Origin: a virus
Length of the DNA: 22,236 nucleotides
Direction: 5' to 3' (one strand)
IMG/VR virus record: IMGVR_UViG_3300042398_000651
Coordinates: 1 to 22,236 of that record
Shown in pieces: positions 541 through 21,887 of the stretch. The stretch's first letter is position 1, and each line of letters opens with the position of its first letter. The position numbers and the translations under genes are program-made. The notes under the pieces were generated by a model. It did not search any database. It was given only the letters and a program-made list of their open reading frames with translations, and was not told where the DNA came from.

Positions 541-3321
541 ATGGCAGTTTATCAAGTAAGTATTGTTGATTGTGGTTGTAATCCAAATAGTGAAGGTTGT
601 AAGTCCCTTGGAATTGTAGTTGAAGATAACTCAAATCAACTTGTTGTTGGTAATGTTTATTCATTTAGCGGAAGAGTTGAATTTGGTTGTTATGTTGTTC
701 AAGGTTTAAAGTTAACGATTGAATCACCTAATACTATTATAATAAATTCATACGGACCAGAAAATCCATCTGGCTGTACAGATTGTATAACAGATATTAG
801 TGATTATTTAGAATTTATATCTTGTGATAGAAATTATGAATTTATAATACCTAAAACTCAAATTTCACCAATACCAGCAATAGATGATATTCTATTTATT
901 GATTTATACTTCTCAACTGAAAGTGGATTACAACAATTCAGTAGTTGTTTTACATTCATAGGGCTAACTTCAACGATTCCTGATAATGATGTATTTGTAT
1001 CTAGTGCTAGTACTGTTTTTGCGGATTGCGAAACTTGTACTCAAAATTCGCCATTAATATATTCAGTTAGTGAATGTATAGGGGGTAATATATATTATAT
1101 GATATTACAATCATCAGGACTTGAAAATCATTTAATAACATTTACTGATTTGGTCGGATTAACACAATATTGTGGAATTGTTCAAAGTTTAACATCCGTG
1201 CCAACAACTGGAGTTTTTATTAATGATTTAGGTGTTTATGATGAAGAACTAGGTATTGATTGTGATTATTGTAATGGACTTGTTAATGAAAAAAAGAAAC
1301 TTGTTAATTGTTTAGGTGGACTTGACCAAATTGTTTGGGCTTCAGTTTTATTTGAACCCGGTAACTCAACACATTTATCACTTGGTGATGGATGTTATGA
1401 AATTAGTCCAGATGTTGTTCCATCAGGAGAAACAATTACAATTAATGAACTTGCAAATTATGACCCACAAGAAGATTGTGAAGATTGTTTGGAATGTTAT
1501 GGTGTAATATATGATTATATCACTTGTGAACAATTTGAGACTTGTAGTCCTATCAATTTGATTGACACTTCCTCAAATAGTCTTTCTAGTGGTAGAAATT
1601 TTAAAATTGATAGTTTTGACTTCGCCTTTATTCCCTTTGCGGGTTCTAATCAAATTGCCAAAGTAGATTTAAATTCACAAACAATTGTTGAACAATCAGG
1701 CGCTGTTTTAACATCACCTTTAAGTTTAGATATTGATGATAATAATCTAGTGATTTGTGTTACGAACTCTGGTACATTTTTACCAACAATTTATGATGTT
1801 ACTTTTTTTGATTACAATAATTTGTCATTATCATCAAATTTAATCATAAGCGGTGCAGTTCCTAATAATGTATATTATAATACAAATGATGGGTATTTTT
1901 ATGTTACAACTTCAAGTATAGGTGGTGTTTCATCAATTTACGTATATAGTGGATTGTCTTACAACACAATGGGGTTAGTCACTAGTTTTGGTTCAATTAG
2001 TCAAAATTATGGTGAAATTATTCAAATTGGTAGTTTAATTTATGTTATAAATCAAAATGCAAATAGTATTGATATTTATAATGATTTTAGCGGGGGTCTT
2101 GGATTAAATACTTCAGTCCCATTACCAACCACCCCTTATTCATTTACGTTTAACTCAAGTAATAATATTTTATACATCTCAACAAATACAAATTATTATA
2201 TTAAACTAGATGTTGCAACAAATTTATATAGTATAATAACTTATAATTCTTGTTCTAGTGTTAATTTAAAAATTAAATTTAATTCAAGTAATAATAGACT
2301 ATATATTACAGATCCAAATTGTGATTATATTTTTGAATTTAATACTACGACAGATACATTATTAAAAACATATAATAATTTAAATAGTAATGGTATAAAC
2401 CAAGTTTATGGAATTGATATTGATACTTCAGGGAATACTTGGTTTAGTTCTTACGATGATTTATTCCAATTAGGATGTAATAATGATTTTATAATAGGTC
2501 AAACAACATCAAATGAATATTTATCAGCTAGCACAGTATTTTTTAATTACCAATTAAGTGCCTGTTGTGTAATTACAACTGTTACAAGTATAACTAACAT
2601 TAGTTTTTTGAATATAACTGAAAATATCAGTATGTTACATTTTGAGGATTGTCAAACTTGTACAGGTTCAACTCAAGATGTATTCTATTGCGTAGAATGT
2701 GTAACAGGTGTTGAAGGAGTATTATTAGCCCCACAAGGTTCATATTCTGCCGGTCAATTTGTACGTTCACAATTTGGTAATTCTGATTGGTTATGTTTTG
2801 AAATTGTAGAACCCTATAGTGGTCAAACAAGTAATCCAATATCATTTGTTACATCAGGTTCAAGTTTTAATACTTGTGAACAATGTGAATCTGGAGCAAC
2901 ATTAGGTTTAACATTAGTCAATTGTGACACATTACAACCATCACGATTTAATGTTACCTTAAATGAATGGTTTGAAATCACTGGATTCCCATCACAATTA
3001 CCAAATTCAGTTGTTAGCGATATTAATGGAGTTTGTTATCAAGTTACAAACTCTTGTCCAATAGATAATGTACATCCATCATTTAACCCTCAAAATTTCT
3101 ACTTAAACCAACTATTTTGTAGAGTAGGTAATCGACCAAGTATATTACCAACTATTTCAGCAGGAACAGAAGCAACAATTTGTAGTGTTTGTTGGGATGG
3201 TACTGGATATACCGCAACAATAATTCACCCACCACATCCAACTTGGACTAATGGTAGTGGTCAAGCAGTAGTACAACTAAACGCAATAACATTAGGTGGT
3301 CCTAATGGTTTAAACAATTAA
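541..3321 (+). CDS. 926-aa Cys-rich repeat protein with central beta-propeller-like region; probable virion surface or tail protein
   Basis: The protein is built from roughly 75-residue modules, each ending in CxxC: C79/C82, C163/C166, C241/C244, C313/C316, then after a central insertion C704/C707, C779/C782 and C881/C884. Typical module ends are DCETC, DCDYC, DCEDC and DCQTC. Residues ~350-645 differ: they are Asn/Ser-rich with recurring NNxLYIS- or NNRLYIT-type strands (IYVINQNANSIDIYN, NSSNNILYIS, NSSNNRLYIT, GNTWFSS), the pattern of NHL/YVTN-type beta-propeller blades. The last ~60 residues match the 60-aa protein upstream. There is no signal peptide or membrane segment. Large size, Thr/Ser/Asn/Gly richness and repeats suggest an exposed virion part such as a fibre, whisker or decoration protein. 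This is inference; I do not recognise a T4 homologue. Confidence 0.88.
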   Translation: MAVYQVSIVDCGCNPNSEGCKSLGIVVEDNSNQLVVGNVYSFSGRVEFGCYVVQGLKLTIESPNTIIINSYGPENPSGCTDCITDISDYLEFISCDRNYEFIIPKTQISPIPAIDDILFIDLYFSTESGLQQFSSCFTFIGLTSTIPDNDVFVSSASTVFADCETCTQNSPLIYSVSECIGGNIYYMILQSSGLENHLITFTDLVGLTQYCGIVQSLTSVPTTGVFINDLGVYDEELGIDCDYCNGLVNEKKKLVNCLGGLDQIVWASVLFEPGNSTHLSLGDGCYEISPDVVPSGETITINELANYDPQEDCEDCLECYGVIYDYITCEQFETCSPINLIDTSSNSLSSGRNFKIDSFDFAFIPFAGSNQIAKVDLNSQTIVEQSGAVLTSPLSLDIDDNNLVICVTNSGTFLPTIYDVTFFDYNNLSLSSNLIISGAVPNNVYYNTNDGYFYVTTSSIGGVSSIYVYSGLSYNTMGLVTSFGSISQNYGEIIQIGSLIYVINQNANSIDIYNDFSGGLGLNTSVPLPTTPYSFTFNSSNNILYISTNTNYYIKLDVATNLYSIITYNSCSSVNLKIKFNSSNNRLYITDPNCDYIFEFNTTTDTLLKTYNNLNSNGINQVYGIDIDTSGNTWFSSYDDLFQLGCNNDFIIGQTTSNEYLSASTVFFNYQLSACCVITTVTSITNISFLNITENISMLHFEDCQTCTGSTQDVFYCVECVTGVEGVLLAPQGSYSAGQFVRSQFGNSDWLCFEIVEPYSGQTSNPISFVTSGSSFNTCEQCESGATLGLTLVNCDTLQPSRFNVTLNEWFEITGFPSQLPNSVVSDINGVCYQVTNSCPIDNVHPSFNPQNFYLNQLFCRVGNRPSILPTISAGTEATICSVCWDGTGYTATIIHPPHPTWTNGSGQAVVQLNAITLGGPNGLNN

Positions 3322-4433: not shown

Positions 4434-5969
4434 TTATTTTTTATCTAAATACTGATAAACATCACTATCATAATCTCTTGTATAGTTGTCTCTCATTCTT
4501 GAAACTTTATTTTGTTTATTATTAAGTCTTCCAAGTTTAATAACATCCCAAACTCCACCTATAAAATACTTAATTGACCCCAATACTTTAGTAAAATAAC
4601 TTGGTTGACTAGTAACTGAACAATATTTTTTCTCAAGTAAAAATTCATCATCAAAATCAATTGCTGTTGTAATACCATTATCAAAAAATCTTAATGGTTT
4701 TTTTACTTCTTTTTGAACTGGTAACGCTGTTCTAGATTCATAACCACTAGTCCATACATATCCTAGCTTATTAAAGGCGTCTTTTCCTTCTTTTTCTAGT
4801 TTGTTTCGTAAATAATACATATATCTACCACCTAAAGTTTTACCCTTTTCACCCCAAGCACTAAATGATGGGGATGGTAATAAACCAGTATCATCAACTA
4901 CTAAATTCCAAACTTTAGATAAATCATATGTTGAGTCAGAAGAATCGGATGTTTTTACATTATATTTTTTACCTATTTCAGGATAGAATTCATAAATATA
5001 AGTTCTAAATCCATTAGCACTATAGGAAGTTTCAAAAGGTGGATAATCAACCCAATTATTTTTTATAAAATCATCGGTATTAGTCATTACCGATTGTATC
5101 CACCATTCCCTATTTTTTGAGTTTGAAACTTCCACTTCGTTTTCCCAATTAGGAAAATCTTTTTTTCTCCAATAAACACCATTCTTATCTTTAAAATAAT
5201 AAGAATCAAAATCTGTACTACTAACCTTTTTAGGGTCACAAACAAAATAATTACCAATATGACCACTACTACCAACTAATGTATTACTATATCCCATATC
5301 TTTCCCTCCATAAGTTTTAGCTCCAATTAACGAAGCAGCATCTTTTATCATTGATAAAAATTCAGCACCATAACATTCCGTAAAATGAACTTCACTTGAT
5401 GGGGATTCTACTAGGTCTTTTAAACCTTCAAGCCAATAAGTTTTAAATGCAAAATCACCGCCATTGGGTTCACTTCCAGTATATTCCACAGGATAAAATA
5501 AAACACCTGGACTTCCATGACTACCAACAACAATCTTTTTAAATTTTTTATTCATTGATTTTAAAATACTGATAACACCTTCAAATTCTTCATAATTTTT
5601 AACTATTGTTGTCATATAAGATGGTGCGAAATATACAGCAGTTTCGTACTCAGATTCACTTCCAGGAATTGAAATATATAGAGTATCCGTAAGTATTTGA
5701 AATACTTTTGGTGTTTTAATAAATTTTAATCCCCCATTTTCTGTTTCAATATAAGCACCTTTCAAAGTCACCATTCGTATATTTGAAGGTGTAGCTTCCT
5801 TAGTATTCCAATCATATTGGTATTTCATATTATTTGATGGTTCTTTTTTTTCAAATTCCCAATCAGCCCCAGGGTCATCTGTAATTTTTTGTTCAGTTAA
5901 TACACCATATAATCTTTTGATATACTCTTTTTCGTTTTCTAAAATAATTAATTTTTTTTTCATCTTCAT
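4434..5969 (-). CDS. 511-aa probable head-packaged protein with a His/Cys clan-CD-like motif
   Basis: Residues 1-26 form a charged helical leader (ENEKEYIKRLYG) ending in LTE (24-26), compatible with T4-type prohead protease cleavage. Residues ~85-240 hold alternating strands and helices. KKIVVGSHGSPG puts His151 after a hydrophobic strand, and VHFTECYGAEF puts Cys199 after another, followed by IGAKTYGG. Strand-H-G and strand-C-[YG] is the arrangement of clan CD (caspase-fold) domains and resembles DUF4347, which has SHGSPG and a later YGC. A peptidase or a degenerate caspase-fold domain is inferred, not shown. The C-terminal ~250 residues are unrecognised. The start overlaps the 296-aa gene's stop by 4 nt (ATGA), implying translational coupling. 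Confidence 0.82.
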   Translation of the reverse strand: MKMKKKLIILENEKEYIKRLYGVLTEQKITDDPGADWEFEKKEPSNNMKYQYDWNTKEATPSNIRMVTLKGAYIETENGGLKFIKTPKVFQILTDTLYISIPGSESEYETAVYFAPSYMTTIVKNYEEFEGVISILKSMNKKFKKIVVGSHGSPGVLFYPVEYTGSEPNGGDFAFKTYWLEGLKDLVESPSSEVHFTECYGAEFLSMIKDAASLIGAKTYGGKDMGYSNTLVGSSGHIGNYFVCDPKKVSSTDFDSYYFKDKNGVYWRKKDFPNWENEVEVSNSKNREWWIQSVMTNTDDFIKNNWVDYPPFETSYSANGFRTYIYEFYPEIGKKYNVKTSDSSDSTYDLSKVWNLVVDDTGLLPSPSFSAWGEKGKTLGGRYMYYLRNKLEKEGKDAFNKLGYVWTSGYESRTALPVQKEVKKPLRFFDNGITTAIDFDDEFLLEKKYCSVTSQPSYFTKVLGSIKYFIGGVWDVIKLGRLNNKQNKVSRMRDNYTRDYDSDVYQYLDKK

Positions 5970-7090: not shown

Positions 7091-8569
7091 TTATTCTTGT
7101 CTTTTAATCGTATTACCATCACAACTATATGGTTTTTTATCTTTTTCGTTGTGCGTTCCTACTTTATGATATTGCCAATCAACAAAATACCAAAAATCAT
7201 AAATTTGAATAAATCCTATCTCTCGTGATTTGTCGTTAAAAACTATACAATTTTTACCAGCTTTTATGCATTCTTCAAAAACACAATTATATTTTCCTGT
7301 ACCCCAATCAGGTGGATAATTTTTTTTCAAACATTCTATAGTTCCCGTTGTTGAGCAATCTACTACTGGTGTTGGCGTACCCGTACCTTTTGTATAATCT
7401 GGGTTTACAATTGGATTAACATCTTGGTTTTCTTTAAGTTTTTTTTCTATCATTTTTGCAACTTTATTAAATTTAGTTAAAATAGGATCAATGACATAAT
7501 GTTGATAATTGTCAAACTCCCATTCCCAAGGCGCATATCCACCTTTATAATGATAGTGCATAAGTAAAACAAAGTTATAACCAATATCCTTGTTCTTATT
7601 GGTTAATATAACTTGAGTTCTAGAATCCGCTGGAAATATTTTCATTGCAGTACAAAAAGTCTCAATATCAGGAGGTAAACCATTAATAGCCTGAGTAGTA
7701 GCATTTTTTAATGTATACCACGAAGAAGATGTTGCAGCTTTTATATTTGCATTAAATTCTCTAGCTTTTATCTCAATTTGATTACCAGATTGTACGAAAC
7801 TATTTAGTTCTTCTGGATTAAAAACACTGCAGAATTCTTTAATAGAATCTAACAAAAGTTCACTTTTACCTAAAGAAGTTTTTATTATTCTCGTATTTTC
7901 TAATAACTTAATTGCAGCTAATATTGTAGAATAACCTAAAATAGTTGCCCCAGTAACTTTTTTCCATTTAGGTAAATTACCAGCAGTATTTAACGCGCCG
8001 CCTAATATATTAGGTCCTTTAGGTAAGTTATTTTTCCACCATTTGTCATTTACATTACTCAATATTTGTTTTGTTAGCACGTTATCAAACACTATGTCGT
8101 TACCATTATTATTTTTTAAGTTAATTATAGGTAGTATCTGAGTTTTAAAATTATGTATTTCTTGTTGTGTTGGTACTTTATCAGGTTTAAAACTTTTTGC
8201 TATATCATTGGCTAACATATCAATAGTGTATAAATTGCCCGTGCTAGTCTGAAATCCAAAAAGGTCTTTATTAGTCTTACTACCACCAACAAACATACCA
8301 GTCGGAATATCTGCTAATATGTCATCAACACTTTTTAAAACTAAAGCATTGTGTGTTGTCGTATCAATATATGACTTCAATGAAGTACCTTTGTACTTAC
8401 CCCCCAATAGAAATTTTGATAATCCAGTTAATCTACTCAAATTTAAGTTTGGTATTGGTCCTTCATTCAAAATTTTCTTATTAACCAAATATTGTTGTTT
8501 TGTTGCTTCAGTATGGAGATTCAAGATACGTTCCTTTTCTTGTTCATCCAAAAAATATAGTTTTTTCAT
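7091..8569 (-). CDS. 492-aa probable head-packaged protein with processed N-terminal leader
   Basis: The N-terminus has DEQEKERILNLHTEATKQQY, then KKILNEGPIP. LNE (34-36) followed by G fits T4-type prohead protease cleavage, which would leave about 456 residues. The helix ExEKExIxxL[HY] is shared with the 511-aa protein. The middle is mixed, with a weakly hydrophobic stretch around TGATILGYSTILAAIKLL. The last ~85 residues are Cys-containing (VDCSTTGTIEC, YNCVFEEC, AGKNC, YSCDG) and aromatic-rich (YDFWYFVDWQYH), looking like a separate small domain. The family is unrecognised. A leader motif lies 18 nt upstream, and the 296-aa gene follows on the same strand beyond a plus-strand gene. Confidence 0.8.
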   Translation of the reverse strand: MKKLYFLDEQEKERILNLHTEATKQQYLVNKKILNEGPIPNLNLSRLTGLSKFLLGGKYKGTSLKSYIDTTTHNALVLKSVDDILADIPTGMFVGGSKTNKDLFGFQTSTGNLYTIDMLANDIAKSFKPDKVPTQQEIHNFKTQILPIINLKNNNGNDIVFDNVLTKQILSNVNDKWWKNNLPKGPNILGGALNTAGNLPKWKKVTGATILGYSTILAAIKLLENTRIIKTSLGKSELLLDSIKEFCSVFNPEELNSFVQSGNQIEIKAREFNANIKAATSSSWYTLKNATTQAINGLPPDIETFCTAMKIFPADSRTQVILTNKNKDIGYNFVLLMHYHYKGGYAPWEWEFDNYQHYVIDPILTKFNKVAKMIEKKLKENQDVNPIVNPDYTKGTGTPTPVVDCSTTGTIECLKKNYPPDWGTGKYNCVFEECIKAGKNCIVFNDKSREIGFIQIYDFWYFVDWQYHKVGTHNEKDKKPYSCDGNTIKRQE

Positions 8570-9403: not shown

Positions 9404-11272
9404 CTATCTCAATTCTTGTAAGTCAAATGTTCTAACACCATCAACTGTAATTCTGGCATAAAATCTGTTGTTCACCATTTTTTTGGCGTAACGTGTCATA
9501 ATACCCTTGATAGGAGTAAAGTTGAATGGATTATACATTGTTGGAGTTAATTGAAGTGGAACATACGGAGCGTAGATGTAACCAGTATCAAGAAGTGATG
9601 TACCTTTATGTCCGATTAACACTTGGTTAGGTGGGAAGTAAGGGTCACGATATACTTGGTATCTACCAGCTAATGTACCTACTCTTTCAATACCCATATT
9701 GTATTGGTCTTGCTCAGGAGAAGCATTTGATACGTGGAAGTATTCCAAGTCATCAAAGATTGCAGAAACCTCAGAAGAAACAACAATCCAGTTAGCACCA
9801 CCTCTAAGAGTTGATTTGTGGATTTGAGCTGAAAGTTGGTTGATAGCTGTGATAAGAGTTTGATTCCAATCTTTTTGAGTGTAAGAAGTTGTTTGAGAAA
9901 TTCTTCTCCATCCGTTGTAATCCCATCTTAAATTCCAAGCTGCACCTTTTCTAAGGTCACGTAGAATTTCTCTATCGATTTCAGCAGCAACTTGCTCAGA
10001 AAGAAGAGCAGTTAATTCAGCTTCAGCATCGATGTTATGGAATGCAGCAACGTCTTGAGCAAGTTCAGGAGACCATTGAGCTCTTAATTTTCTTTCAGTT
10101 ACAGAAACAGTTACTGATTCTAAATCGAAAGAAACTTCACCGATTTTATCTTCGAATTCAAGTTCTTCATATCTTCTGAATACTGCAGTAAATGCTGAAC
10201 CTGAAAGACCTGCTGTTAATGTAGTTCCTGTGTAACCATCTAAAGATGTTGCATCACACTCAACACAAACTGGACAAGACAAATCAACCTCTAATAAAAT
10301 ACAACCATTTTGATTACAAATGTCATTGTAAGTACCACCACCATTTGTTGGCCAAGTTGTTTTTGTATTAGTAGATGTTGGTTGAACAATACCTTTACCA
10401 TATTGTTGTGTAACTACACGGAAAAGAAGAGAATTTCTTACACCTGTAGAAGTATAAATTGAATTACAAGGAGTTGTTGCACTGAAGGGTGATTCTGCCT
10501 GAGCAGCTGTAGCATAAATTCTTAAATCTGATAAGAATGCTTCAGTATCTATTTCACTTCCATCAGGTGCGATTAATTTACCAACACCAGTATCTTGGAA
10601 ACCACACATTTGAACAAGAACTTTTCTAACATTAGTTGTTGCTGGGTATTGTGTAGAGGCAGAAACAACTGCACTATTACTCCATACCATAACAGTTGCG
10701 TTAGATGTAATAGCAGTCCAACGACCTTTTGAATAGTCGAATAAACCAGCAGGATCTAAACCAGCTTCGTTACCTTCGTAGAATAAATCATAAAGATTTT
10801 TAGTGTAAGCACCAGCACTTGTGCCATAACCCGCACTTGGGTCACCAGGGTAGTTACCAGGACTTCCTACAGGAGCGTAGTGTTGGCCACTATCACCATT
10901 AGGAATACCACTACCAGGATAAGTAGCACCAGTATAACCTTGGATTTTAGGTACGAAGTAGAACAATTTACCAATTGGTAAGTTCATAGCTTGTACAGAT
11001 ACGATGTCATTTGCTAATAATTTAGAGAATACACGTCTAACGATTGGAAATACAACTGTTTCAAATGAACCAGAACTTCCATCAGAAGTTGCTTCGTTGA
11101 TAAGGTGAGAAGCTTGATTTTCATATAACTGAGCAACGTTCTCTTTTAGGTGGCCTTTAAGACCTTCAAGGAATCCTAATCTATCCCATTTGTTAATAGT
11201 ATCTTCTTTGATAACTTTAAGGTGTTTCAAACCAATGTTACCAACAAGACCGCTTTCTAATAATGCTCCCAT
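9404..11272 (-). CDS. 23: Major capsid protein, T4 gp23-like
   Basis: The capsid precursor is 622 aa (T4 gp23 is about 521). T4-like landmarks in order: NKWDRLGFLEG near residue 27; the maturation site INE (58-60), then ATSDG; VRRVFSKLLANDIVSVQAMN (79-97), matching gp23 VRRAIPNLIAFDICGVQPMN; and LKAEY/ELAQDLKAIHGLDAEAEL-type sequence here as LRAQWSPELAQDVAAFHNID (396-415) then AEAEL. Removal of 60 residues would leave a shell protein of ~562 aa. The central region (~120-360) is longer than in T4 and contains a Cys cluster (C319, C324, C333, C336, C339), perhaps an insertion domain. It follows the scaffold gene by 36 nt and ends at a strong terminator. Confidence 0.97.
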   Translation of the reverse strand: MGALLESGLVGNIGLKHLKVIKEDTINKWDRLGFLEGLKGHLKENVAQLYENQASHLINEATSDGSSGSFETVVFPIVRRVFSKLLANDIVSVQAMNLPIGKLFYFVPKIQGYTGATYPGSGIPNGDSGQHYAPVGSPGNYPGDPSAGYGTSAGAYTKNLYDLFYEGNEAGLDPAGLFDYSKGRWTAITSNATVMVWSNSAVVSASTQYPATTNVRKVLVQMCGFQDTGVGKLIAPDGSEIDTEAFLSDLRIYATAAQAESPFSATTPCNSIYTSTGVRNSLLFRVVTQQYGKGIVQPTSTNTKTTWPTNGGGTYNDICNQNGCILLEVDLSCPVCVECDATSLDGYTGTTLTAGLSGSAFTAVFRRYEELEFEDKIGEVSFDLESVTVSVTERKLRAQWSPELAQDVAAFHNIDAEAELTALLSEQVAAEIDREILRDLRKGAAWNLRWDYNGWRRISQTTSYTQKDWNQTLITAINQLSAQIHKSTLRGGANWIVVSSEVSAIFDDLEYFHVSNASPEQDQYNMGIERVGTLAGRYQVYRDPYFPPNQVLIGHKGTSLLDTGYIYAPYVPLQLTPTMYNPFNFTPIKGIMTRYAKKMVNNRFYARITVDGVRTFDLQELR

Positions 11273-12814: not shown

Positions 12815-12841
12815 TTTCTTGGTTTTTTGTTTATTTTATTA

Positions 12842-12850
12842 TATAAATAT
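12842..12850 (-). promoter_or_regulatory. Leader motif ATATTTATA upstream of the scaffold gene (proximal)
   Basis: The motif lies 27 nt before the ATG at 12814, within ATATATTTATATAATAAAA on the minus strand. It probably serves the scaffold-capsid transcript, because the capsid gene lacks its own copy. Confidence 0.5.
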
Positions 12851-12906
12851 ATACGATGTTAAAAAAAGTTAGTTAAATGAATTTTTAACCAAATATTTTT
12901 AACAAT

Positions 12907-13247: not shown

Positions 13248-13967
13248 TCAATATCCGTATAAAGATAATTTTTTCATTAGTTCCAAAGATTTATTTCCAC
13301 TTTCTCCGACATTTCTTTCAATAGCCATTTTTTTATCGTCTTCTAAATTTTCTTCAAACATATGTTTATCTTCTTTGTTTAAGAAAAGATAAGCACCAGG
13401 TGTTGATGGTGATGATACCAAATCAAAACAAATTAATTCAAAATCATCTTGAACTTCATTTTGTTCCCCAACTTTTTTTAATGAACCAACTCCACGAGAG
13501 GAAATACCAAGAGTTACACCTTGTCTTAAATAATTTGCTGCCATATCACCTTTAGTTGATACAATCCCTCTTTCGTGAAATCCTGGTGATGTTAACAATT
13601 TAAGTTTACCCATTAAAACTGGTCCTTCCCACCAAACTTCATTTATAATATGAGATACTCTATCAAGGTCAATTAAAGATGATTCTGGGTGATTTAATTC
13701 AGATAAAGATGTTCCTTTTTGAATCATCTTTTTATAATTCTCAGCTTCTCTTTTTAATATCTTTTCTGGGTAGATTCTACCATTTCTATTTGGTGTATTG
13801 TATTTTTGTAATACAGCATAGAATTCAAATGGTTTGGAATAATCTAACATTTGTTTGGATTCTTGTAACATTTTTGCATTAAATCCATCTGTTGGGGAAA
13901 CCCACCCATCATTTTCAATTAAAATACCTCTACCTAACTCACCAGGGTTTAAAATTTTTAAGCTCAT
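13248..13967 (-). CDS. 21: Prohead maturation protease, T4 gp21-like
   Basis: A 239-aa serine protease of the phage prohead (herpesvirus-assemblin fold) family. Likely catalytic residues are His93 in SELNHPESS and Ser156 or Ser157 in VTLGISSRGVGS. Supporting motifs are NRNGRIYP near residue 61, a long strand GPVLMGKLKLL, and FDLVSSPSTPGA (181-192), which is typical of the family. It should cut at [LI]xE sites, including the capsid site after E60, and degrade scaffold. The gene lies between portal and capsid as in T4. The ATATTTATA leader motif lies 15 nt upstream. The C-terminal ~40 residues are charged and may be self-processed. Confidence 0.94.
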   Translation of the reverse strand: MSLKILNPGELGRGILIENDGWVSPTDGFNAKMLQESKQMLDYSKPFEFYAVLQKYNTPNRNGRIYPEKILKREAENYKKMIQKGTSLSELNHPESSLIDLDRVSHIINEVWWEGPVLMGKLKLLTSPGFHERGIVSTKGDMAANYLRQGVTLGISSRGVGSLKKVGEQNEVQDDFELICFDLVSSPSTPGAYLFLNKEDKHMFEENLEDDKKMAIERNVGESGNKSLELMKKLSLYGY

Positions 13968-13982
13968 TGTATGATTTTTTTA

Positions 13983-13991
13983 TATAAATAT
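13983..13991 (-). promoter_or_regulatory. Leader motif ATATTTATA upstream of the protease gene
   Basis: The motif lies 15 nt before the ATG at 13967 and is followed by TAAAAAAATC. It occupies the 38-nt gap after the 151-aa gene. Confidence 0.5.
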
Positions 13992-14005
13992 TTAAAAATA
14001 TATAT

Positions 14006-14461
14006 TTATATTTTAACATTAGTTTTTTTCTCTTTTTTTGTTAAAAAAAAACTAAAATGTTCATTCCTTAAAAAATTATAATGTAATATATTTTTGGTCA
14101 GTTCTTTGAGAGTTTCTTTTAATTTTGAAGATTTAAAATCTATTTGTGTGGTATTGAGATATAAATTTATTTCTAAATTTAGAAATGATTTTTTACCTAA
14201 GTTGATTCCACTTGAACGTAAATCCAAATCAGATATAAAATTTTCTTTAAAAGTAGTCTTATCTAAATTTTGATAAATTGTGTGTTTTATTGACCTAGAT
14301 AAGTTTAAAATAATACGATTCCAATTTTCTTCTTCCTCTTTTGGTTCGACCCAAGTTTGTATGTTTAAGTAAATTGATTTTAACTCAAATGAATCTGTTG
14401 TACCATATATTACTTTTATAGTTTTAAAACCTTGGATTTTAGAGGTTTTGCCTTTTTTCAT
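14006..14461 (-). CDS. Hypothetical 151-aa protein upstream of the protease
   Basis: Unrecognised. It begins with a basic segment (MKKGKTSKIQGFKTIKVIYG), then alternates strands and helices (ELKSIYLNIQTWVEP, NWNRIILNLSRSIKHTIYQN, KSFLNLEINLYLNTTQID) and ends Lys-rich. No Cys, signal peptide or membrane segment. The fold could be a compact alpha/beta virion or assembly protein; its place between portal and protease suggests head assembly. It diverges from the plus-strand bS21 gene over a 75-nt gap containing an inverted repeat. Confidence 0.75.
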   Translation of the reverse strand: MKKGKTSKIQGFKTIKVIYGTTDSFELKSIYLNIQTWVEPKEEEENWNRIILNLSRSIKHTIYQNLDKTTFKENFISDLDLRSSGINLGKKSFLNLEINLYLNTTQIDFKSSKLKETLKELTKNILHYNFLRNEHFSFFLTKKEKKTNVKI

Positions 14462-14475
14462 TAATTTTAATAGTT

Positions 14476-14508
14476 TATCAGTTTATTTTTTATAAAAAGT
14501 AACTGATA
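14476..14508. repeat. Inverted repeat between divergent hypothetical and bS21 genes
   Basis: TATCAGTT (14476-14483) and AACTGATA (14501-14508) form an 8-bp perfect inverted repeat around the A/T palindrome TTTTTATAAAAA. It lies 15 nt upstream of the minus-strand ATG at 14461 and 28 nt upstream of the bS21 ATG at 14537. A shared operator, a promoter pair or an RNA hairpin are all possible. Confidence 0.5.
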
Positions 14509-14536
14509 TTTTAATAAATGTCAAAAAAATAAAATT

Positions 14537-14728
14537 ATGTTGATTGTAAAAGTTAATCAAAACACAAACATTGAGAAAGCCTTAAAACTCTTTAAAAGTA
14601 AGGTAATTAAAACTAAACTAATGAGTGAATTACGAAATCGAAAACAATTCACAAAAAAATCGGTAACAAGACGAACTGAAATCAATAAAGCAAAATATGT
14701 ACAACAAATAAAATCAAAAGAAGATTAG
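14537..14728 (+). CDS. rpsU: Phage-encoded ribosomal protein bS21
   Basis: The 63-aa protein matches bacterial bS21 in length and pattern: MLIVKVNQNTNIEKALKLFK, then an ELRNRKQFTKKSVTRRTEIN core and KAKYVQQ end. Diagnostic features are the ALKxFKxK helix, ELRxRxxFxKxSVxRR and KAxYxQ. bS21 binds the 30S platform near the 16S rRNA 3' end. In Bacteroidota it helps hide the anti-Shine-Dalgarno; the Tyr I recall as important there (Tyr54) is Tyr54 here. Phage bS21 probably replaces or competes with the host protein on ribosomes. It is a single plus-strand gene in a minus-strand block and overlaps the convergent 238-aa gene by 4 nt at its end. Its leader is A-rich with no Shine-Dalgarno. Confidence 0.93.
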   Translation: MLIVKVNQNTNIEKALKLFKSKVIKTKLMSELRNRKQFTKKSVTRRTEINKAKYVQQIKSKED

Positions 14729-15441
14729 AGATTTTCTTTTAGATTTTTTAACTTGAAATAAGTTAATTTATCATATTTTTCTGTGGTTATTTTTTCAATT
14801 GATTCATCAATTCTTTTTGATGTTTCAATGTCAGATACTTTTTTAATTTCATTTAATTTTGAAATTATATCTATTTTCAATATATCAAACTCACTATTTA
14901 ATTTATTATCGTCTTCTTTTAATAAACTAATTAAACTTTTCTTATCCGATTCGTTTAACTCTGAGATATATTTGTTAATTGTTTGGTTTGCTATATTCAC
15001 CATAGTTGAAATAGGTAAATTAATAACATCGCTATTTTCATCTTTTGATTTTTTAATCAAAGATTCTGAAATTATTTTTCTACTTTTTATTTTGTTTTCT
15101 AATGTCAAAATATTTGTTGAAAATAAATTATCAATATCATCATATTGATTTTCACTCTTAACATCATCAACCCATAATTCTAACACTTTTAAATCTTTTG
15201 GATTTATTTTGTTAATAGTGTTTTCATATATTATAATACATTCATTTATAAATTGGTCAGCAATTTCTTTAGTATACCCTTTATTTGTGTTCAATTCATC
15301 GTATACAAAAAACAATTTCTTTAAAGTTTTATTTTCTAAAACAAGTTGTTTGAATACCTTTAACTCATCCTTAAATGAATTTTTACCATAGGATTCAAAC
15401 AAATGTTTTTCTATCTTTGATTTTAAATGTCCAAATTTCAT
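14725..15441 (-). CDS. 238-aa helical protein downstream of portal
   Basis: I chose the ATG at 15441 (MKFGHLKSKIEKHLFESYGK). The longer frame from 15465 would run through the leader motif, which lies 12 nt before 15441. The protein is Lys/Glu/Ile-rich and almost entirely helical, with segments such as ELKVFKQLVLENKTLKKLFF and SIEKITTEKYDKLTYFKLKN. No enzyme motif is visible. T4 has the prohead core genes 67 and 68 between portal and protease, so a core or assembly role is plausible by position only. The family is unrecognised. It converges on bS21 with a 4-nt overlap. Confidence 0.82.
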   Translation of the reverse strand: MKFGHLKSKIEKHLFESYGKNSFKDELKVFKQLVLENKTLKKLFFVYDELNTNKGYTKEIADQFINECIIIYENTINKINPKDLKVLELWVDDVKSENQYDDIDNLFSTNILTLENKIKSRKIISESLIKKSKDENSDVINLPISTMVNIANQTINKYISELNESDKKSLISLLKEDDNKLNSEFDILKIDIISKLNEIKKVSDIETSKRIDESIEKITTEKYDKLTYFKLKNLKENL

Positions 15442-15453
15442 AATTTTTTTTAT

Positions 15454-15462
15454 TATAAATAT
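15454..15462 (-). promoter_or_regulatory. Leader motif ATATTTATA upstream of the 238-aa gene
   Basis: GATATTTATAATAAAAA overlaps the portal stop codon and ends 12 nt before the ATG at 15441. Confidence 0.5.
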
Positions 15463-17264
15463 CAATCATCTAAAAGTTTTTTCAGATGCACTTCCATTTC
15501 ACCCAAATAATTTCTTACTTTTGACAAATCAATATAAGAATCATCCTCAGTTAATGAATCATTTTCCAATAGAATATTTAAATTATTTTTATTAATTGAT
15601 TCTGGTGCTAAACCCGAGGGCATTTCTCCACTTGGTGGTGGCGGTGGCATTCCTCCACCACCTTCATCATCTCCACCTGGTGGTGGTGGTGTTCCACCTT
15701 CAGTTGTACCTGATTTAGTTCCATAAAGTTTATCAATATTATCAAATAAACCAGTATGAGTTATAATTGTTGCCGTATTTGTTAATTCAGCCCCAACAGC
15801 CTTTTCAATTCTTTGTTGTTGTAAATCAAGTTTAATTTCTTCTTCAGAGAATCCCATAATATGTTTCTTAGCCCAAGTAACTGATGTTGGAGAAATACCC
15901 TCAATTGCAGTAACACATTCTTTATAAAGTGCAACTTTCTCTTTCCATATATCAATTCTAAGTAAATCGGCTTGACTTGATGGATTTGTTAATCCTAAAG
16001 TAAAATTACCTAACTCATCTTCAAAACCTAAAAGAAATAGATGTATAATTGCTATCTTATTTAATTCTGCAACCATACATTTTTGTATTCTATTTATCGT
16101 TCTAGCAAAACGTATGTCTATAAGTGATAAGTTTTTACCATCACCAACAGGTTCTTCAAATCCTAGAAAAGCTTTTGGTACACGTAATGCTGTTAATAAT
16201 TTCTTTTGAATATATTCAATATCTGCAATCTCACCTAAATTTTGTCCTCCAGCTAATGTTTCAATTGGATTTGTTGCAGCAGGGTCTCTAACAGGAATAA
16301 AATAATCTTGGTCAACCGCCATTTGATTAAATCTCATATCAACATTTCCGGTTTGAGAATCAACAACTTGACTACGTTTAAACTTATTTGCAACACGTTG
16401 TACATATGGTTCAACATCTTTATCATCCATATTTCCAACGAAGACTTTGAATACCCTTCTTTCAGGGGCTCTTGATGTTCTATATATCAACATTGCATCC
16501 TCAGATAATAATAGTTGTTTCCAAATACGTCTTGCTTTTTCTAACATTGATGTACCGTAAGGTAATTTTCTATCATCCCCAAACAAACGGAAGTGTGCAA
16601 TTTCCCAAGAATTGAATTCCATATCCTTTACCTTCCATTTGAATCTCAAACCTTTGTTCTCTGCGGGTTCTTCAACATTCTGTCTACTTGCTTGTGCGGG
16701 CATACCTCTTTCCAAACGTTCAATTTCAATATTTGGTAGTTGCATACAACCAACAATACCTTTTTCTGGATCAAGTTTTAAATAGACAAAATTATCACCA
16801 TACTTACAAGTGTTTCTAGTCCACATTGGTAAATTGGTATTAATATCCAAAACATTATTAAACAAATCAGCTAGAATTGATTTAATCCTTTTTGATTCTG
16901 AATATATTTGTAACATATTACCATTATGGTCAACTGTAGTTGATTCTTCACCATAAATGTCTAATGCTGCAGATATTTCTGGTGTATATTCCATAGATTC
17001 ATAATCGTAGAATGACGCTAATCTAGTTGGTTCGTAATATACCGCTTGGGTATAAAGATTACTTTCTATTTTAGTCCATTGATTTGCCAAGTAATATGTT
17101 TGTTGAGCTTGTAATAACTCTTTATCATATTCTTGTTTAGATGTAGTACGTAATAATTCTTTTCTATCAAACTTATATGTTGGATAGTCTTGATTTAAAA
17201 GTTCATTAGGACCGAAGGCTTGAGATAATCTTTGCCATACGGTATATTTGTTATTATTTTCCAT
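15462..17264 (-). CDS. 20: Portal protein, T4 gp20-like
   Basis: A 600-aa portal subunit that forms the dodecameric ring through which terminase loads DNA and to which the tail binds. The strongest match to T4 gp20 is LLSEDAMLIYRTSRAPERRV (252-271), compared with [20 protein letters not shown] in T4. It is followed by FVGNMDDKDVE, an YIQKKLLTALRVPKAFLGF segment like ALYMALRVPLSRI in T4, and FARTINRIQ, like FAKFIRELQ in T4. The C-terminus differs: a Pro/Gly-rich linker (~523-552, runs of PPPP and GGGG) and an ~50-residue tail with LTEDD and a helix. The tail is absent from T4 gp20 as far as I recall. The leader is A/T-rich without a clear ATATTTATA. Confidence 0.96.
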   Translation of the reverse strand: MENNNKYTVWQRLSQAFGPNELLNQDYPTYKFDRKELLRTTSKQEYDKELLQAQQTYYLANQWTKIESNLYTQAVYYEPTRLASFYDYESMEYTPEISAALDIYGEESTTVDHNGNMLQIYSESKRIKSILADLFNNVLDINTNLPMWTRNTCKYGDNFVYLKLDPEKGIVGCMQLPNIEIERLERGMPAQASRQNVEEPAENKGLRFKWKVKDMEFNSWEIAHFRLFGDDRKLPYGTSMLEKARRIWKQLLLSEDAMLIYRTSRAPERRVFKVFVGNMDDKDVEPYVQRVANKFKRSQVVDSQTGNVDMRFNQMAVDQDYFIPVRDPAATNPIETLAGGQNLGEIADIEYIQKKLLTALRVPKAFLGFEEPVGDGKNLSLIDIRFARTINRIQKCMVAELNKIAIIHLFLLGFEDELGNFTLGLTNPSSQADLLRIDIWKEKVALYKECVTAIEGISPTSVTWAKKHIMGFSEEEIKLDLQQQRIEKAVGAELTNTATIITHTGLFDNIDKLYGTKSGTTEGGTPPPPGGDDEGGGGMPPPPPSGEMPSGLAPESINKNNLNILLENDSLTEDDSYIDLSKVRNYLGEMEVHLKKLLDD

Positions 17265-17302
17265 AAATTAAATCTAAATTTATTTGATAAAAATTAAATA
17301 CT

Positions 17303-17452
17303 TTACTGTTTAGTACCACTATTAGTATTACCTTTTTTTTGATTAATATCAGTGTTTCCACCAGGATTAACCATTACTGCTTTTTGTCCAGGTACTACTA
17401 ATCTTCCATTAGCATTTATTTTACCAGATGTTTTTCTTTTTTCAAATCCCAT
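17303..17452 (-). CDS. 49-aa basic protein between terminase and portal
   Basis: The preferred start is the ATG at 17452 (MGFEKRKTSGKINANGRLVV, then PGQKAVMVNPGG). An in-frame codon at 17500 lies inside the terminase gene and would place the leader motif within the protein. The product is basic, Gly/Asn-rich and probably disordered at its end (GNTNSGTKQ). The family is unrecognised. The motif 12 nt upstream and its position between two essential head genes support expression. Confidence 0.72.
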   Translation of the reverse strand: MGFEKRKTSGKINANGRLVVPGQKAVMVNPGGNTDINQKKGNTNSGTKQ

Positions 17453-17464
17453 AATGTTTTTTTT

Positions 17465-17474
17465 AATAAATATT
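17465..17474 (-). promoter_or_regulatory. Variant leader motif AATATTTATT upstream of the 49-aa gene
   Basis: This is a one-base variant of the common motif. It ends 12 nt before the ATG at 17452 and overlaps the terminase stop. Confidence 0.4.
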
Positions 17475-19242
17475 ATCTCTTTTGGTTTCCAAATAACCAA
17501 GAGTATTTCATATAGTCATCCTTTGATATATTTTGATTTCTTTGTTGTAATCTATCGTGTCCAAATGGAATTACTGGATTGAATTCCAATTGTTTCCCCA
17601 TATTTTCATTGTTAGTTACTGCCCAAGATTCCAACATTGCTTTTGTTTGTTCTGTAACTTTTTCCAAACTACTAAATGACGATTCTGCCACATAGGTTGC
17701 CATCGCAATTGACATTATTAAGTCATCGTGTTGTCCTTTTTGGTGGTCAGGTCTTCCATTGACATAAACAAAGGTGTTCATCTCATCAAATAACCTTGAA
17801 CTATATATCTTAAATTCATGTCTCATTGCTTCCTCAAATGATGCAATTATCTGAACACGTTTATTATTAAAATTAAGTCCAGGGATTTTATCCAATGCCT
17901 TGGGGTCATACTTCCATTTGTTAGCCAAATCTACTCCATCAACATATAAATTTTTATAACCCAACTCTTGTAATTTTCTTGATGTTGAAACACCCATTCC
18001 ACCAGTTATATCTATTACAATAAAACAATTATACATATTACCCCACTTATAACATATTTCAGCCATTGTATCAGGTGGTAATTTCCCAACATATTCTGCA
18101 ACTTGTTCTCTTGTATCAAAATCAATAATTTGGAAAGAACTAAAGTCTTCACTATCCCCTCTACTAACATCCACACCCATAACGTATTTATGTCCCATAA
18201 TAGGTTCTTTCCATATCCATAAAGAATTACCCATCATTTTATTTTGAGGTTCTTTAATCATATTTTCTTTAACTCTCTGCATTAAAAGAGAATCAAATAC
18301 ATTATCACCTGACCCAAGAAAATTACACTCTAATTCTTGTGAAACTTTTCGTTTATCGTATTTAAGTTTCTTTACCATTCCCTCAAACCAAGATGAACAA
18401 GGTTTGTACCCTGAATCCATTATTAATTTAAGTTCATCATAATTTCTATCCTCAAATGATATATTTTCCCAACTGACAATATCCTCTTTTTGGTATTCAG
18501 TTTTATTTAATAGATAATGAATAATGTCTTTGGTTTTAACTAAATATAAATCTTTTGTATATCTTGGGTCTCTAAACCAAAACATCTCAGATATTTTGAA
18601 GTCATTCATTCCCCTATTCGCTTGATTATATATTTCATAATAAATTGGGTCATAACCATTTGGTGTTGACACTACAATAACTTTACCCCCAGTTGATAGT
18701 GAGGCCATACAAGCAGCCCAAAAGTCTGAATCTGCGTCAATAAATGCCGCCTCGTCAAACACTAGGATTGTTGGTGTAAAACCACGTAGAGCATCCTTTG
18801 AGGTTGCCACAGCTTTTACTTCACATCCATTGTTTGTCTTATAATGTTTTTGTGAATTTTTATCAACTGAGAAATCAATTCCAACCCAACTTGGCCATTG
18901 ACCAATAAACATTCTTATTTTATTGGCCATCTCTTGCGATGTATCCAATTTGTTGGCAATGATTAGAATTTTTTCAGGTTTTGTTTTTTTTGCAAAAGCA
19001 ATTTTTTTAGATACCCAAGCAGCAGTTACTGTTGATACCCCAGCTTGTCTGTATTTTAATGCAATGTTTTCATTAACCTCTTCATAGTCATTTAATAATG
19101 ATACTTGGTCTGGAAATAACTCTAATGGGACATATTTTGATACAGTATTGTCATAGGTTTCCAAATATGTCTTTAACGCGTATGGGGTATCTTTCATACA
19201 CTTAACATATTCAATCATTACTTGTTCTTTTGTTAAACTCAT
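17473..19242 (-). CDS. 17: Terminase large subunit, T4 gp17-like
   Basis: A 589-aa DNA-packaging motor. The ATPase part has a Walker A variant RQAGVST (65-71), Walker B ILVFDE (159-164, with catalytic Glu164) and the coupling motif VSTPNG (191-196). The RNase H-like nuclease has MGVDVSRGDSEDFSSF (Asp358), FIVIDITGGMG (Asp411) and KGQHDDLIMS (Asp506/Asp507), the three acidic positions expected for metal binding. It cuts concatemeric DNA and pumps it through the portal. It has its own leader motif 12 nt upstream and follows a terminator. In T4 tail sheath and tube genes 18 and 19 come between terminase and portal. Here only the 49-aa gene does. Confidence 0.97.
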   Translation of the reverse strand: MSLTKEQVMIEYVKCMKDTPYALKTYLETYDNTVSKYVPLELFPDQVSLLNDYEEVNENIALKYRQAGVSTVTAAWVSKKIAFAKKTKPEKILIIANKLDTSQEMANKIRMFIGQWPSWVGIDFSVDKNSQKHYKTNNGCEVKAVATSKDALRGFTPTILVFDEAAFIDADSDFWAACMASLSTGGKVIVVSTPNGYDPIYYEIYNQANRGMNDFKISEMFWFRDPRYTKDLYLVKTKDIIHYLLNKTEYQKEDIVSWENISFEDRNYDELKLIMDSGYKPCSSWFEGMVKKLKYDKRKVSQELECNFLGSGDNVFDSLLMQRVKENMIKEPQNKMMGNSLWIWKEPIMGHKYVMGVDVSRGDSEDFSSFQIIDFDTREQVAEYVGKLPPDTMAEICYKWGNMYNCFIVIDITGGMGVSTSRKLQELGYKNLYVDGVDLANKWKYDPKALDKIPGLNFNNKRVQIIASFEEAMRHEFKIYSSRLFDEMNTFVYVNGRPDHQKGQHDDLIMSIAMATYVAESSFSSLEKVTEQTKAMLESWAVTNNENMGKQLEFNPVIPFGHDRLQQRNQNISKDDYMKYSWLFGNQKR

Positions 19243-19254
19243 ATAATCTTTTTA

Positions 19255-19263
19255 TATAAATAT
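19255..19263 (-). promoter_or_regulatory. Leader motif ATATTTATA upstream of the terminase gene
   Basis: The motif lies 12 nt before the ATG at 19242, immediately after the terminator, so it is the first signal available to restart transcription for terminase. Confidence 0.55.
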
Positions 19264-19302
19264 AAAAACCCCCACTTATTTCTAAATGAGGGTTTTTATT
19301 TT
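19264..19302 (-). terminator. Rho-independent terminator between the 538-aa gene and terminase
   Basis: AAAAACCC (19264-19271) pairs with GGGTTTTT (19290-19297). The inner arms pair imperfectly (CACTTA with TAAATG) around a short loop. T-rich sequence follows the stem on both strands. It starts 4 nt past the stop of the 538-aa gene. Confidence 0.8.
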
Positions 19303-19305
19303 ATT

Positions 19306-20922
19306 TTAATCTTCATCTAACCAACTTAAATCATCTTCATCATCATCCTCTTGTTCAGGTTTTTGTATGTCATATTTTTTCTTTGAATAAGATGGGAAAT
19401 CCTTTTTTAAATTTGTTGTCATCTCTCTTGCCTTTTCAATTATTTCTTCAACAAATGACTCTGCGTATGGGTCTAAATCTTTACCAATAGTTAAAGATTG
19501 AACTAATTTTTTTAATTTACCTTTATTTGCAATATCTTCATCTTCTACTTCTGAGAAGTATTTTAAAACCCCTGGAATTAATTCTCTCTGTTCGTCTTCA
19601 TTAGGTACAATTTCATTAAATATTTCATAAAATCTTTTGAAGAAAACTTCAGAGAATACTAAATCATATGCTTCAATTTCAAGTGAAGTTGCCGCACGTT
19701 TAGCTAAAGCTCTTTGTTCGTCACTAGTAGTTCCTCCACCAGCGGCAGAAGTGAAAAACATTATTGTACCTTTAACTAATTCGTGTACTAAAAGAGGTAA
19801 AGTAGATGCTCTTGCTCTTACTGTGAATGCACCCCCAAAATCAAGTTCTTCTTCCTCTTCATAATCACCACCCATATCACCACCAGTTTCACCAGTTTCT
19901 TCAGGAGATAATACCTCAACTTGACCTATTTGTCCACCACCTGATGTACCTATTCCCCCAATGTCATCAAATAACCAATACATATGTAACATAATTGGTT
20001 GTATTACGTTAGAAATTTCTAATATTCTTTCACCTCCAGGTAATTCTTGTATTTTTCTCATACAAATTTTGTATGCGTCAGCGTAATACAATGCCATACC
20101 TCTTCTAAAATAATTTATTATCATTCTGTTTGTTACGGCATCAGAAAATTCTTCTTTTGCTTTTTCTAATGTTTCAGGTGAAATTTTGAATGTGGATTGT
20201 ATTGCTTCTTTGGCTTTTTCTTCATTAAACTCAATACCCATTGATTCAAAATCATTTTTTAAATCTTCTAATTTTTGAGTTTTTTCAGCATCAATATCAG
20301 CAAATTTGTCTAAAATTTCTTCATCACTTATTTTATCAGCTTTAGCTTTCATACTTGAAAGTTTTGGAAGGAATCCATAACTTAATTCCCCATCCAATTT
20401 TATCATTTTTGTGAAAAATTCGTTATCAATACCCATAGCTTTTTCAACAGATTCCATAGCTATTTGTTCTATTTCTTCTTTGTTTCCCATTTGTAGCCTT
20501 GTTAATTCACCCATAAGTTTTTGTACAATAGTCATAAGAGTCCTAAACGCGGTTACAGAATCAGATTTAAAATTAGGATTTGAAATATTCAAACGTCTTG
20601 CAATATCAGAATCACGACCAATTAATTCTTCTAGTCGTTGTATTGAAAACTTAAAAGCTTCTGAGGTAAAAAAATCAACTTGAGGTTGAGTAAGTCCAAA
20701 TTTATTCAAAGGTAATTCACCCCTTTCAATTTTTGATTGTAAAGTTCTACTTGGACGTGCACCTCCAACCTCTGATCCGAATGTCATTTCATCTTCTTTA
20801 ATTAAAGAATCAATTTCACTCAAAATTTGATTTTCTTTTTTTGTTAAACCTTCATTTAAAAGTTTATATTTTAAACTTTGTCTAGTTTCTTTTAAAAGAA
20901 ATATTTTATTTTTTAAGTCCAT
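19306..20922 (-). CDS. 538-aa acidic protein upstream of terminase; possible head protein
   Basis: Residues 1-24 (KNKIFLLKETRQSLKYKLLN, then E) end in LNE followed by G, a T4-type prohead protease site shared with several neighbours. The rest is largely helical and acidic: SIQRLEELIGRDSDIARRLN, a Gly-rich loop near residue 330 (GGIGTSGGGQIGQ), an EEEEELDFGG segment, VHELVKGTIMFFTSAAGGGT, and an Asp/Glu-rich end (EQEDDDEDDLSWLDED). I recognise no enzyme motif. It follows the 318-aa gene by 8 nt and precedes a terminator, so the three rightmost genes form a unit. A packaged or core-associated virion protein is inferred from the site and neighbourhood. Confidence 0.82.
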   Translation of the reverse strand: MDLKNKIFLLKETRQSLKYKLLNEGLTKKENQILSEIDSLIKEDEMTFGSEVGGARPSRTLQSKIERGELPLNKFGLTQPQVDFFTSEAFKFSIQRLEELIGRDSDIARRLNISNPNFKSDSVTAFRTLMTIVQKLMGELTRLQMGNKEEIEQIAMESVEKAMGIDNEFFTKMIKLDGELSYGFLPKLSSMKAKADKISDEEILDKFADIDAEKTQKLEDLKNDFESMGIEFNEEKAKEAIQSTFKISPETLEKAKEEFSDAVTNRMIINYFRRGMALYYADAYKICMRKIQELPGGERILEISNVIQPIMLHMYWLFDDIGGIGTSGGGQIGQVEVLSPEETGETGGDMGGDYEEEEELDFGGAFTVRARASTLPLLVHELVKGTIMFFTSAAGGGTTSDEQRALAKRAATSLEIEAYDLVFSEVFFKRFYEIFNEIVPNEDEQRELIPGVLKYFSEVEDEDIANKGKLKKLVQSLTIGKDLDPYAESFVEEIIEKAREMTTNLKKDFPSYSKKKYDIQKPEQEDDDEDDLSWLDED

Positions 20923-20930
20923 ATTTTTTT

Positions 20931-21887
20931 TTAGATTAAACGATGTTTTTTAACTTGTGACATAAAATAGTCTAAACCTTCTTTTTGTTCACCCTTAGCT
21001 TCAGGTGCATCTTTTTCTTTTGGTTTTCTAAATGGATTACCAGTTTTCTTTTTTTCTTCTTTTTCTGTTTCAGTTTCTTTTTCAGTTTCTGTTTCAGTAT
21101 TACTTCTATATTTTTTAAATCTTGCTTCAGGTGCATCTTTTTCTTTTGGTTTTCTAAATGGATTACCAGTTTTCTTTTTTTCTTCTTTTTCTGTTTCAGT
21201 TTCTTTTTCTTTAGTATCACCCATAGCGACCTCAATTAATCTTATTAAGTCACTTTTTTTCATAGTTGGTTTTAAATTTTTTTCGATTATATTTTCTAAA
21301 TGATTACGAAGTTTTGATTCATTAGTTGAAAACTTGGGATTTATTAAATTACTCATATTTGATTTCATTCCACCTACCATTGCGGCTGTAAGTGCTTCAT
21401 TATAATCAACAACTTCATTTGTCTCCTTCTTCTTATATTTTACAGTTTTTTTAGGATGTTTTTTTTCTGGCATTTTTTCATATTGTTTTTTTGATGTACT
21501 CTTTGAAAATTCTTTTGCCATTTTACACCATTTACAATCGTCATCTTTACACTTATTACATTTAGCCCAAAATAATCCTTGTTGAGCCTTAGACTCAAAT
21601 TTTTCAGTCATTTCACCCTCTGTTTTTGGTGCAGTCCCTGGTTTTTCTTGTGAAATAACTTCAACAGGACCTTGAGCTTTAACTACTGTATTTCCTATAG
21701 CTATTTCATCTCCAGCAGTGGCTTTAGTTTTATATCCTGTTTGTTGAACAGTTTGAATAGCCTCCTTAGTTTCCTTACTTGACATTTTTTCAAACAACAA
21801 ATTTATTTTACCCTCATTAAGGGTTGATATAAATTGGGGATTTAAACCTCTATCCAACAAAAATCCAATTTTTTTATTTAGATTCAT
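20931..21887 (-). CDS. 318-aa Lys/Glu-rich repeat protein with a four-Cys knuckle
   Basis: The N-terminus contains LNE (23-25) followed by GKIN, the same candidate prohead protease site as the next gene. A zinc-knuckle-like motif AKCNKCKDDDCKWCKMA (C-x2-C-x4-C-x2-C) lies near residues 110-120. After a Lys-rich middle comes a helix KSDLIRLIEVA, then two copies of a 42-residue unit (TETEKEEKKKTGNPFRKPKE, KDAPEA). These arise from an exact 86-nt DNA repeat. The tail GLDYFMSQVKKHRLI is helical. The charged, low-complexity composition resembles internal head or core proteins; no specific family recognised. The start overlaps the upstream gene's end by 14 nt. Confidence 0.8.
   Translation of the reverse strand: MNLNKKIGFLLDRGLNPQFISTLNEGKINLLFEKMSSKETKEAIQTVQQTGYKTKATAGDEIAIGNTVVKAQGPVEVISQEKPGTAPKTEGEMTEKFESKAQQGLFWAKCNKCKDDDCKWCKMAKEFSKSTSKKQYEKMPEKKHPKKTVKYKKKETNEVVDYNEALTAAMVGGMKSNMSNLINPKFSTNESKLRNHLENIIEKNLKPTMKKSDLIRLIEVAMGDTKEKETETEKEEKKKTGNPFRKPKEKDAPEARFKKYRSNTETETEKETETEKEEKKKTGNPFRKPKEKDAPEAKGEQKEGLDYFMSQVKKHRLI
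20998..21209 (-). repeat. Exact 86-nt direct repeat inside the 318-aa gene
   Basis: Bases 20998-21083 and 21124-21209 are identical by eye and offset by 126 nt, an in-frame 42-codon period. Identity at the DNA level indicates a recent duplication or ongoing homogenisation. Confidence 0.92.

Follow-up and report, generated by a model that had tools for sequence, protein, structure and literature searches.

The gene at positions 14537-14728 of the window, i.e., the complete virus record of 22,236 bases that was analyzed as a whole, encodes a bS21 ribosomal protein of the Bacteroidia type, and its leader lacks the extended Shine-Dalgarno (SD) sequence that Flavobacterium-type host rpsU leaders carry. 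Among ribosomal proteins, bS21 is the one that phages carry most often. The phage system itself is known from Chen et al. 2022 (PMC9723584), who divided bS21-encoding Bacteroidetes myoviruses into clades a-e and proposed that their bS21 leads to specialized ribosomes. What is new here is the comparative contrast between the leaders of host rpsU and those of phage bS21; in the available portions of PMC9723584 and PMC9976891, there is no report of a phage bS21 lacking the SD signal of its host, and Chen et al. omit there the leaders, SD sequences, and promoters of phage bS21.

The rpsU-like open reading frame lies on the + strand, runs from an ATG start to a TAG stop, and is translated as MLIVKVNQNTNIEKALKLFKSKVIKTKLMSELRNRKQFTKKSVTRRTEINKAKYVQQIKSKED, a product of 63 aa. 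The curated Pfam profile Ribosomal_S21 (PF01165) recognizes it with 50.1 bits (2.3e-13; cut-off 27), residues 4-55 aligning with positions 2-53 of the 55 in the profile, and PHROG 21469, "ribosomal protein S21", matches as well. The solved structures that match it best are both bS21 chains, 9i5v (8e-11) and, from the F. johnsoniae ribosome, 7jil (2e-10); the alignments are gapless and place Tyr54 on Tyr54. The AlphaFold2 model (pLDDT 88) has helices at residues 12-36 and 41-62, and the seven top Foldseek matches of this model are bacterial ribosome chains, all of them weak (E about 0.1-0.4, TM about 0.4, rmsd about 8). The first-pass annotation, which had read the gene as a 63-aa bS21 with Tyr54, is confirmed by the profile, PHROG, and the alignments with solved bS21 chains; the protein is of the Bacteroidia type and retains Tyr54 and the other positions shared with hosts.

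The gene sits inside a T4-like head module whose members run on the opposite (-) strand, namely, the major capsid protein (MCP, gp23-like, 9404-11272), the prohead protease (gp21-like, Peptidase_S77, 13248-13967), the portal protein (gp20-like, 15462-17264), and the large terminase (TerL, 17473-19242). It is enclosed by two conserved hypothetical genes, also on the - strand, which belong to the pair of families that flank bS21 in Chen et al.: one (14006-14461) is divergent from bS21, from which it is separated by the A/T-rich leader region at 14462-14536 (+), devoid of an SD, and the other (14725-15465) is convergent, with its stop overlapping that of bS21 by 4 nt. This is the arrangement of the Chen et al. 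group, to which the window is also similar in Tyr54, in the divergence at positions 21, 23, 25/24, and 28, and in a GC content of about 30%; no real difference from that group as published was found. The host is probably a Flavobacterium-like bacterium, as judged from the bS21 type, the leaders, and the related published phages rather than from the contig itself.

Other features of the window were noted. Sites resembling TATTTATATAA occur on the - strand directly before the head genes for TerL (19243-19290), g11309 (12815-12870), and the protease (13968-14000), and look like late promoters; a terminator-like hairpin also precedes TerL. Several genes (3327, 4434-5969, 7091-8569, 19306-20922, and 20931-21887) share a short start segment that ends in (I/L)xE-like residues, e.g., MRITESQLNNLVKKIVNE, and these may be capsid-targeting segments cleaved by the gp21-like protease. 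Furthermore, the segment HPxWTxG...VVQLNAITLGGxNGLN, at the C terminus of a 926-aa protein, recurs in the adjoining 60-aa ORF (348-530 and 3190-3321). The Rfam search of the window gave no match.

As for relatives, a near-DNA search of the phage collection with the window returned no match, and cultured relatives were reached only through distant TerL matches, with Flavobacterium phage immuto at 27%, while the bS21 search also gave six matches in uncultured phages. Scans with bS21 and TerL yielded viral loci by the several hundred, with many overlaps among them. Wherever both portal and protease were present, bS21 was found between them on the opposite strand (217/217 loci, overlaps between searches counted). 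When regions were recovered by TerL alone, so that bS21 itself was not the bait, bS21 was present in 57/57 distinct portal-protease regions, at TerL identities down to 76%. The gene is fixed in this phage clade. In the tree, the 78 core-clade bS21 proteins form one clade (support 0.95), and this monophyly points to a single acquisition of bS21 followed by descent with the phage. Among these relatives the gene is under purifying selection, with a median pairwise dN/dS of 0.12 (54 pairs).

Other observations concern individual loci and genomes. Two loci (L047 and L071) are 98% and 97% identical to the window in TerL and MCP, respectively, and only 67% in bS21 and 54% in the neighbor at 14725-15465, a contrast that suggests recombination or rapid change around bS21. 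The nearest relative contig, L373 (G002, IMGVR_UViG_3300036770_003984), whose bS21 is 94% identical, carries a tmRNA at 16924-17305 (Rfam RF00023, 87.2 bits) and 24 tRNAs. Finally, some bS21 copies from Bacteroidota genomes (L446, L469, and L476) fall with the phage proteins in the tree and lack an SD, and two of these genomes have another bS21 copy (L470, L433) with a strong SD; the SD-less copies are possibly of phage origin.

Published work indicates that bS21 sequesters the anti-SD (PMC9976891) and that it is required for initiation on SD-less mRNAs (PMC9976891). When 91 distinct phage bS21 proteins were compared with 77 from hosts, the positions common to both were K17, K20, K22, K25, T26, R35, F38, K40, S42, R46, K51, A52, Y54, and Q56, and residue 54 was aromatic (Tyr, His, or Phe) in 91/91 phage proteins. 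Divergence clusters in the N-terminal half, at positions 21, 23, 24, 27, 28, and 30, and is nearly complete at 21/23/24/28, where phages have S/V/I/Q-L and hosts R-K/F/D-E/T-V. Chen et al. (PMC9723584) likewise reported an aromatic residue 54 in all of their proteins and divergence at Arg21, Phe23, Asp25, and Thr28, their Asp25 being probably D24 in the present numbering. The window displays their phage-specific residues (S21 V23 I24 K25 L28), and the pattern extends across the clade.

Retention of the aromatic residue 54 and of the host-shared positions points, as judged from residue conservation, to a phage bS21 that keeps the anti-SD hidden, its contacts with bS18 being putative. The first-pass annotation had named release or hiding of the anti-SD, or a favoring of phage leaders, and between the first two hiding emerges as the likelier state. 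Release would free the 16S tail for the translation of SD-led phage mRNAs, and F. johnsoniae bS21 deprived of Tyr54 or of its C-terminal part does have this effect (PMC9976891). Nonetheless, with residue 54 aromatic in every phage protein, phage genes devoid of SDs, and SD-like pairing depleted in their leaders, we regard release as most improbable.

The bS21 leaders were scored for pairing with GGAACACCUCCUUUCU, the 3' tail of a 16S rRNA found in a Bacteroidota genome, and the conclusions were the same with the assumed tail GGAUCACC... The depletion was seen in three relatives (129, 194, and 309 kb), where SD-like pairing below -8 kcal/mol occurred in the leaders of fewer genes than in an upstream control (3 against 10, 4 against 17, and 12 against 25, respectively); SD-like pairing is thus depleted, not enriched, in the phage leaders. 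Within the window, the strongest leader of a conventionally started gene reaches no more than -5.2 kcal/mol, and only one ORF, a doubtful one that has a TTG start and overlaps TerL, pairs more strongly, at -7.0. The A content is 54% in the leaders and 31% across the window, so that the A-rich, SD-less leaders described from the bare sequence were borne out by both pairing energies and composition.

Against this background, host rpsU stands apart. In Flavobacterium, as McNutt et al. 2023 (PMC9976891) showed, rpsU regulates its own expression by means of an extended SD, which is translated by ribosomes that lack bS21 and whose anti-SD is therefore free. In our comparison, all 80 Flavobacterium-type rpsU leaders paired with the tail at -19.2 to -24.7 kcal/mol, whereas the 78 distinct core-clade phage bS21 leaders centered on a median of -2.0, the strongest reaching -9.8 and none falling below the -13 kcal/mol used to define the extended SD of autoregulated Flavobacteriales rpsU. 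Across all 91 distinct phage leaders, none passed this threshold either (0/91), the closest being that of one huge phage at -12.1. The window bS21 is similar to Flavobacteriales rpsU (PMC9976891) in the protein, which is of the Bacteroidia type with Tyr54, and differs in the leader, which at -0.5 kcal/mol, compared with about -22, has no extended SD. The absence of the host signal, first noticed in this single leader, therefore holds across the clade.

Without an extended SD, the phage gene lacks the signal that controls host rpsU, and the comparison of leaders suggests that phage bS21 may escape the SD autoregulation of the host. The scope of this escape depends on the host. A phylum-wide host sample consisted mostly of Arg54 sequences, and only those with an aromatic residue 54 were used; in about 13/31 of these Bacteroidota bS21 genes, a strong canonical SD is also absent, although two of the 13 (L430 and L432) reach -11.9 with an assumed variant anti-SD. 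The escape would thus be relevant only in hosts that have that SD. Moreover, because Bacteroidota phages are generally devoid of SDs, the bS21 leader may lack one simply through the way in which the phage translates its genes, without any selection for escape.

The phage leaders possess a conserved element of their own. The motif [AT]GTCAAAA, present in the window as TGTCAAAA at 14519-14526 (+), occurs in 73/78 distinct core phage bS21 leaders compared with 1.3 expected from shuffles, a contrast inflated by shared ancestry, and the start codon follows the GTCAAA core at a distance of 17 to 39 nt. Among intergenic sites, both in the window and in three larger relatives, the element is almost confined to bS21. 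Pairing with 16S rRNA was rejected as its function, as the 16S that was read contains no TTTTGAC and the distance from the start codon varies over those 17 to 39 nt; its near uniqueness to bS21 among intergenic sites also excluded a general late promoter. A host-type -7 box (TAnnTTTG) was found in only 26/78 leaders (shuffled mean 5.8) and is absent from that of the window. The element may be part of a promoter, an operator, or an RNA site. A gene-specific leader element of this kind, together with the fixed position among the head genes, would also suit a role outside translation, such as being packaged in the virion head or controlling the neighboring late genes; this is very unlikely, as the positions shared with hosts are retained throughout the protein.

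The reading that we favor, with modest confidence, is that phage bS21 takes the place of the host protein, leaves the anti-SD hidden, and, being produced independently of the SD circuit of the host, should lower host rpsU. By analogy with the Pelagibacter phage HTVC008M, whose bS21 was shown to enter ribosomes of E. coli (Mizuno et al. 2019, PMC6375957), it would be built into the host 30S subunit instead of the host copy. HTVC008M is a myovirus too; unlike for the window phage, its host is an alphaproteobacterium and entry of its bS21 into ribosomes has been demonstrated. Once in place, phage bS21 would retain the 3' tail of the 16S rRNA within the bS21/bS18/bS6 pocket, hiding the anti-SD, and would display the altered N-terminal helix (S21, V23, I24, K27, L28) near the mRNA path. 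Its SD-less mRNA would be translated by ordinary replete ribosomes, while host rpsU depends on SD pairing by ribosomes that lack bS21. Since phage bS21 would fill these ribosomes, translation of host rpsU should fall and the pool would shift to the phage protein. We infer that the protein is incorporated and that the bS21 pool shifts, and likewise whatever preference there may be for phage mRNA. Entry need not be benign: E. coli ribosomes with the pelagiphage bS21 were almost inactive, at about 5% (PMC6375957), indicating that a bS21 swap could also be inhibitory.

In a second and more tentative explanation, phage bS21 mainly alters mRNA choice, its changed N-terminal helix favoring phage over host leaders, as in the specialized ribosomes of Chen et al. 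The concentration of changes at 21, 23, 24, 27, 28, and 30 while most shared positions are retained, the A-rich phage leaders, and the late transcription of bS21 with the structural genes in the Chen et al. phage group (PMC9723584) all agree with it. However, the host leaders of the phylum are also SD-less, and no leader difference was found for bS21 to read. Rather unlikely, in turn, is that phage bS21 only keeps the 30S subunit complete under host shut-off or loss of host bS21, with selectivity unchanged, because the S21/V23/I24 fixed in phages against R/K21, F23, and D/E24 in hosts would be left unexplained. Such a supply or repair role would nevertheless accord with the shared core, the purifying selection, the need for bS21 on SD-less mRNAs (PMC9976891), and an SD-less leader that is simply the phage norm.

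The rpsU circuit has been discussed as a possible host counter-defense against phage bS21 (PMC9976891). It is conceivable, though doubtful, that the phage instead turns this autoregulation against its host, an SD-less, anti-SD-hiding bS21 shutting off host bS21 while its own synthesis continues, with [AT]GTCAAAA as a phage-specific control site replacing the SD. A strong SD stands on every Flavobacterium-type rpsU leader examined and on none of the phage counterparts, and this contrast makes it directly testable whether phages take over the ribosome by circumventing the only host gene under SD control.
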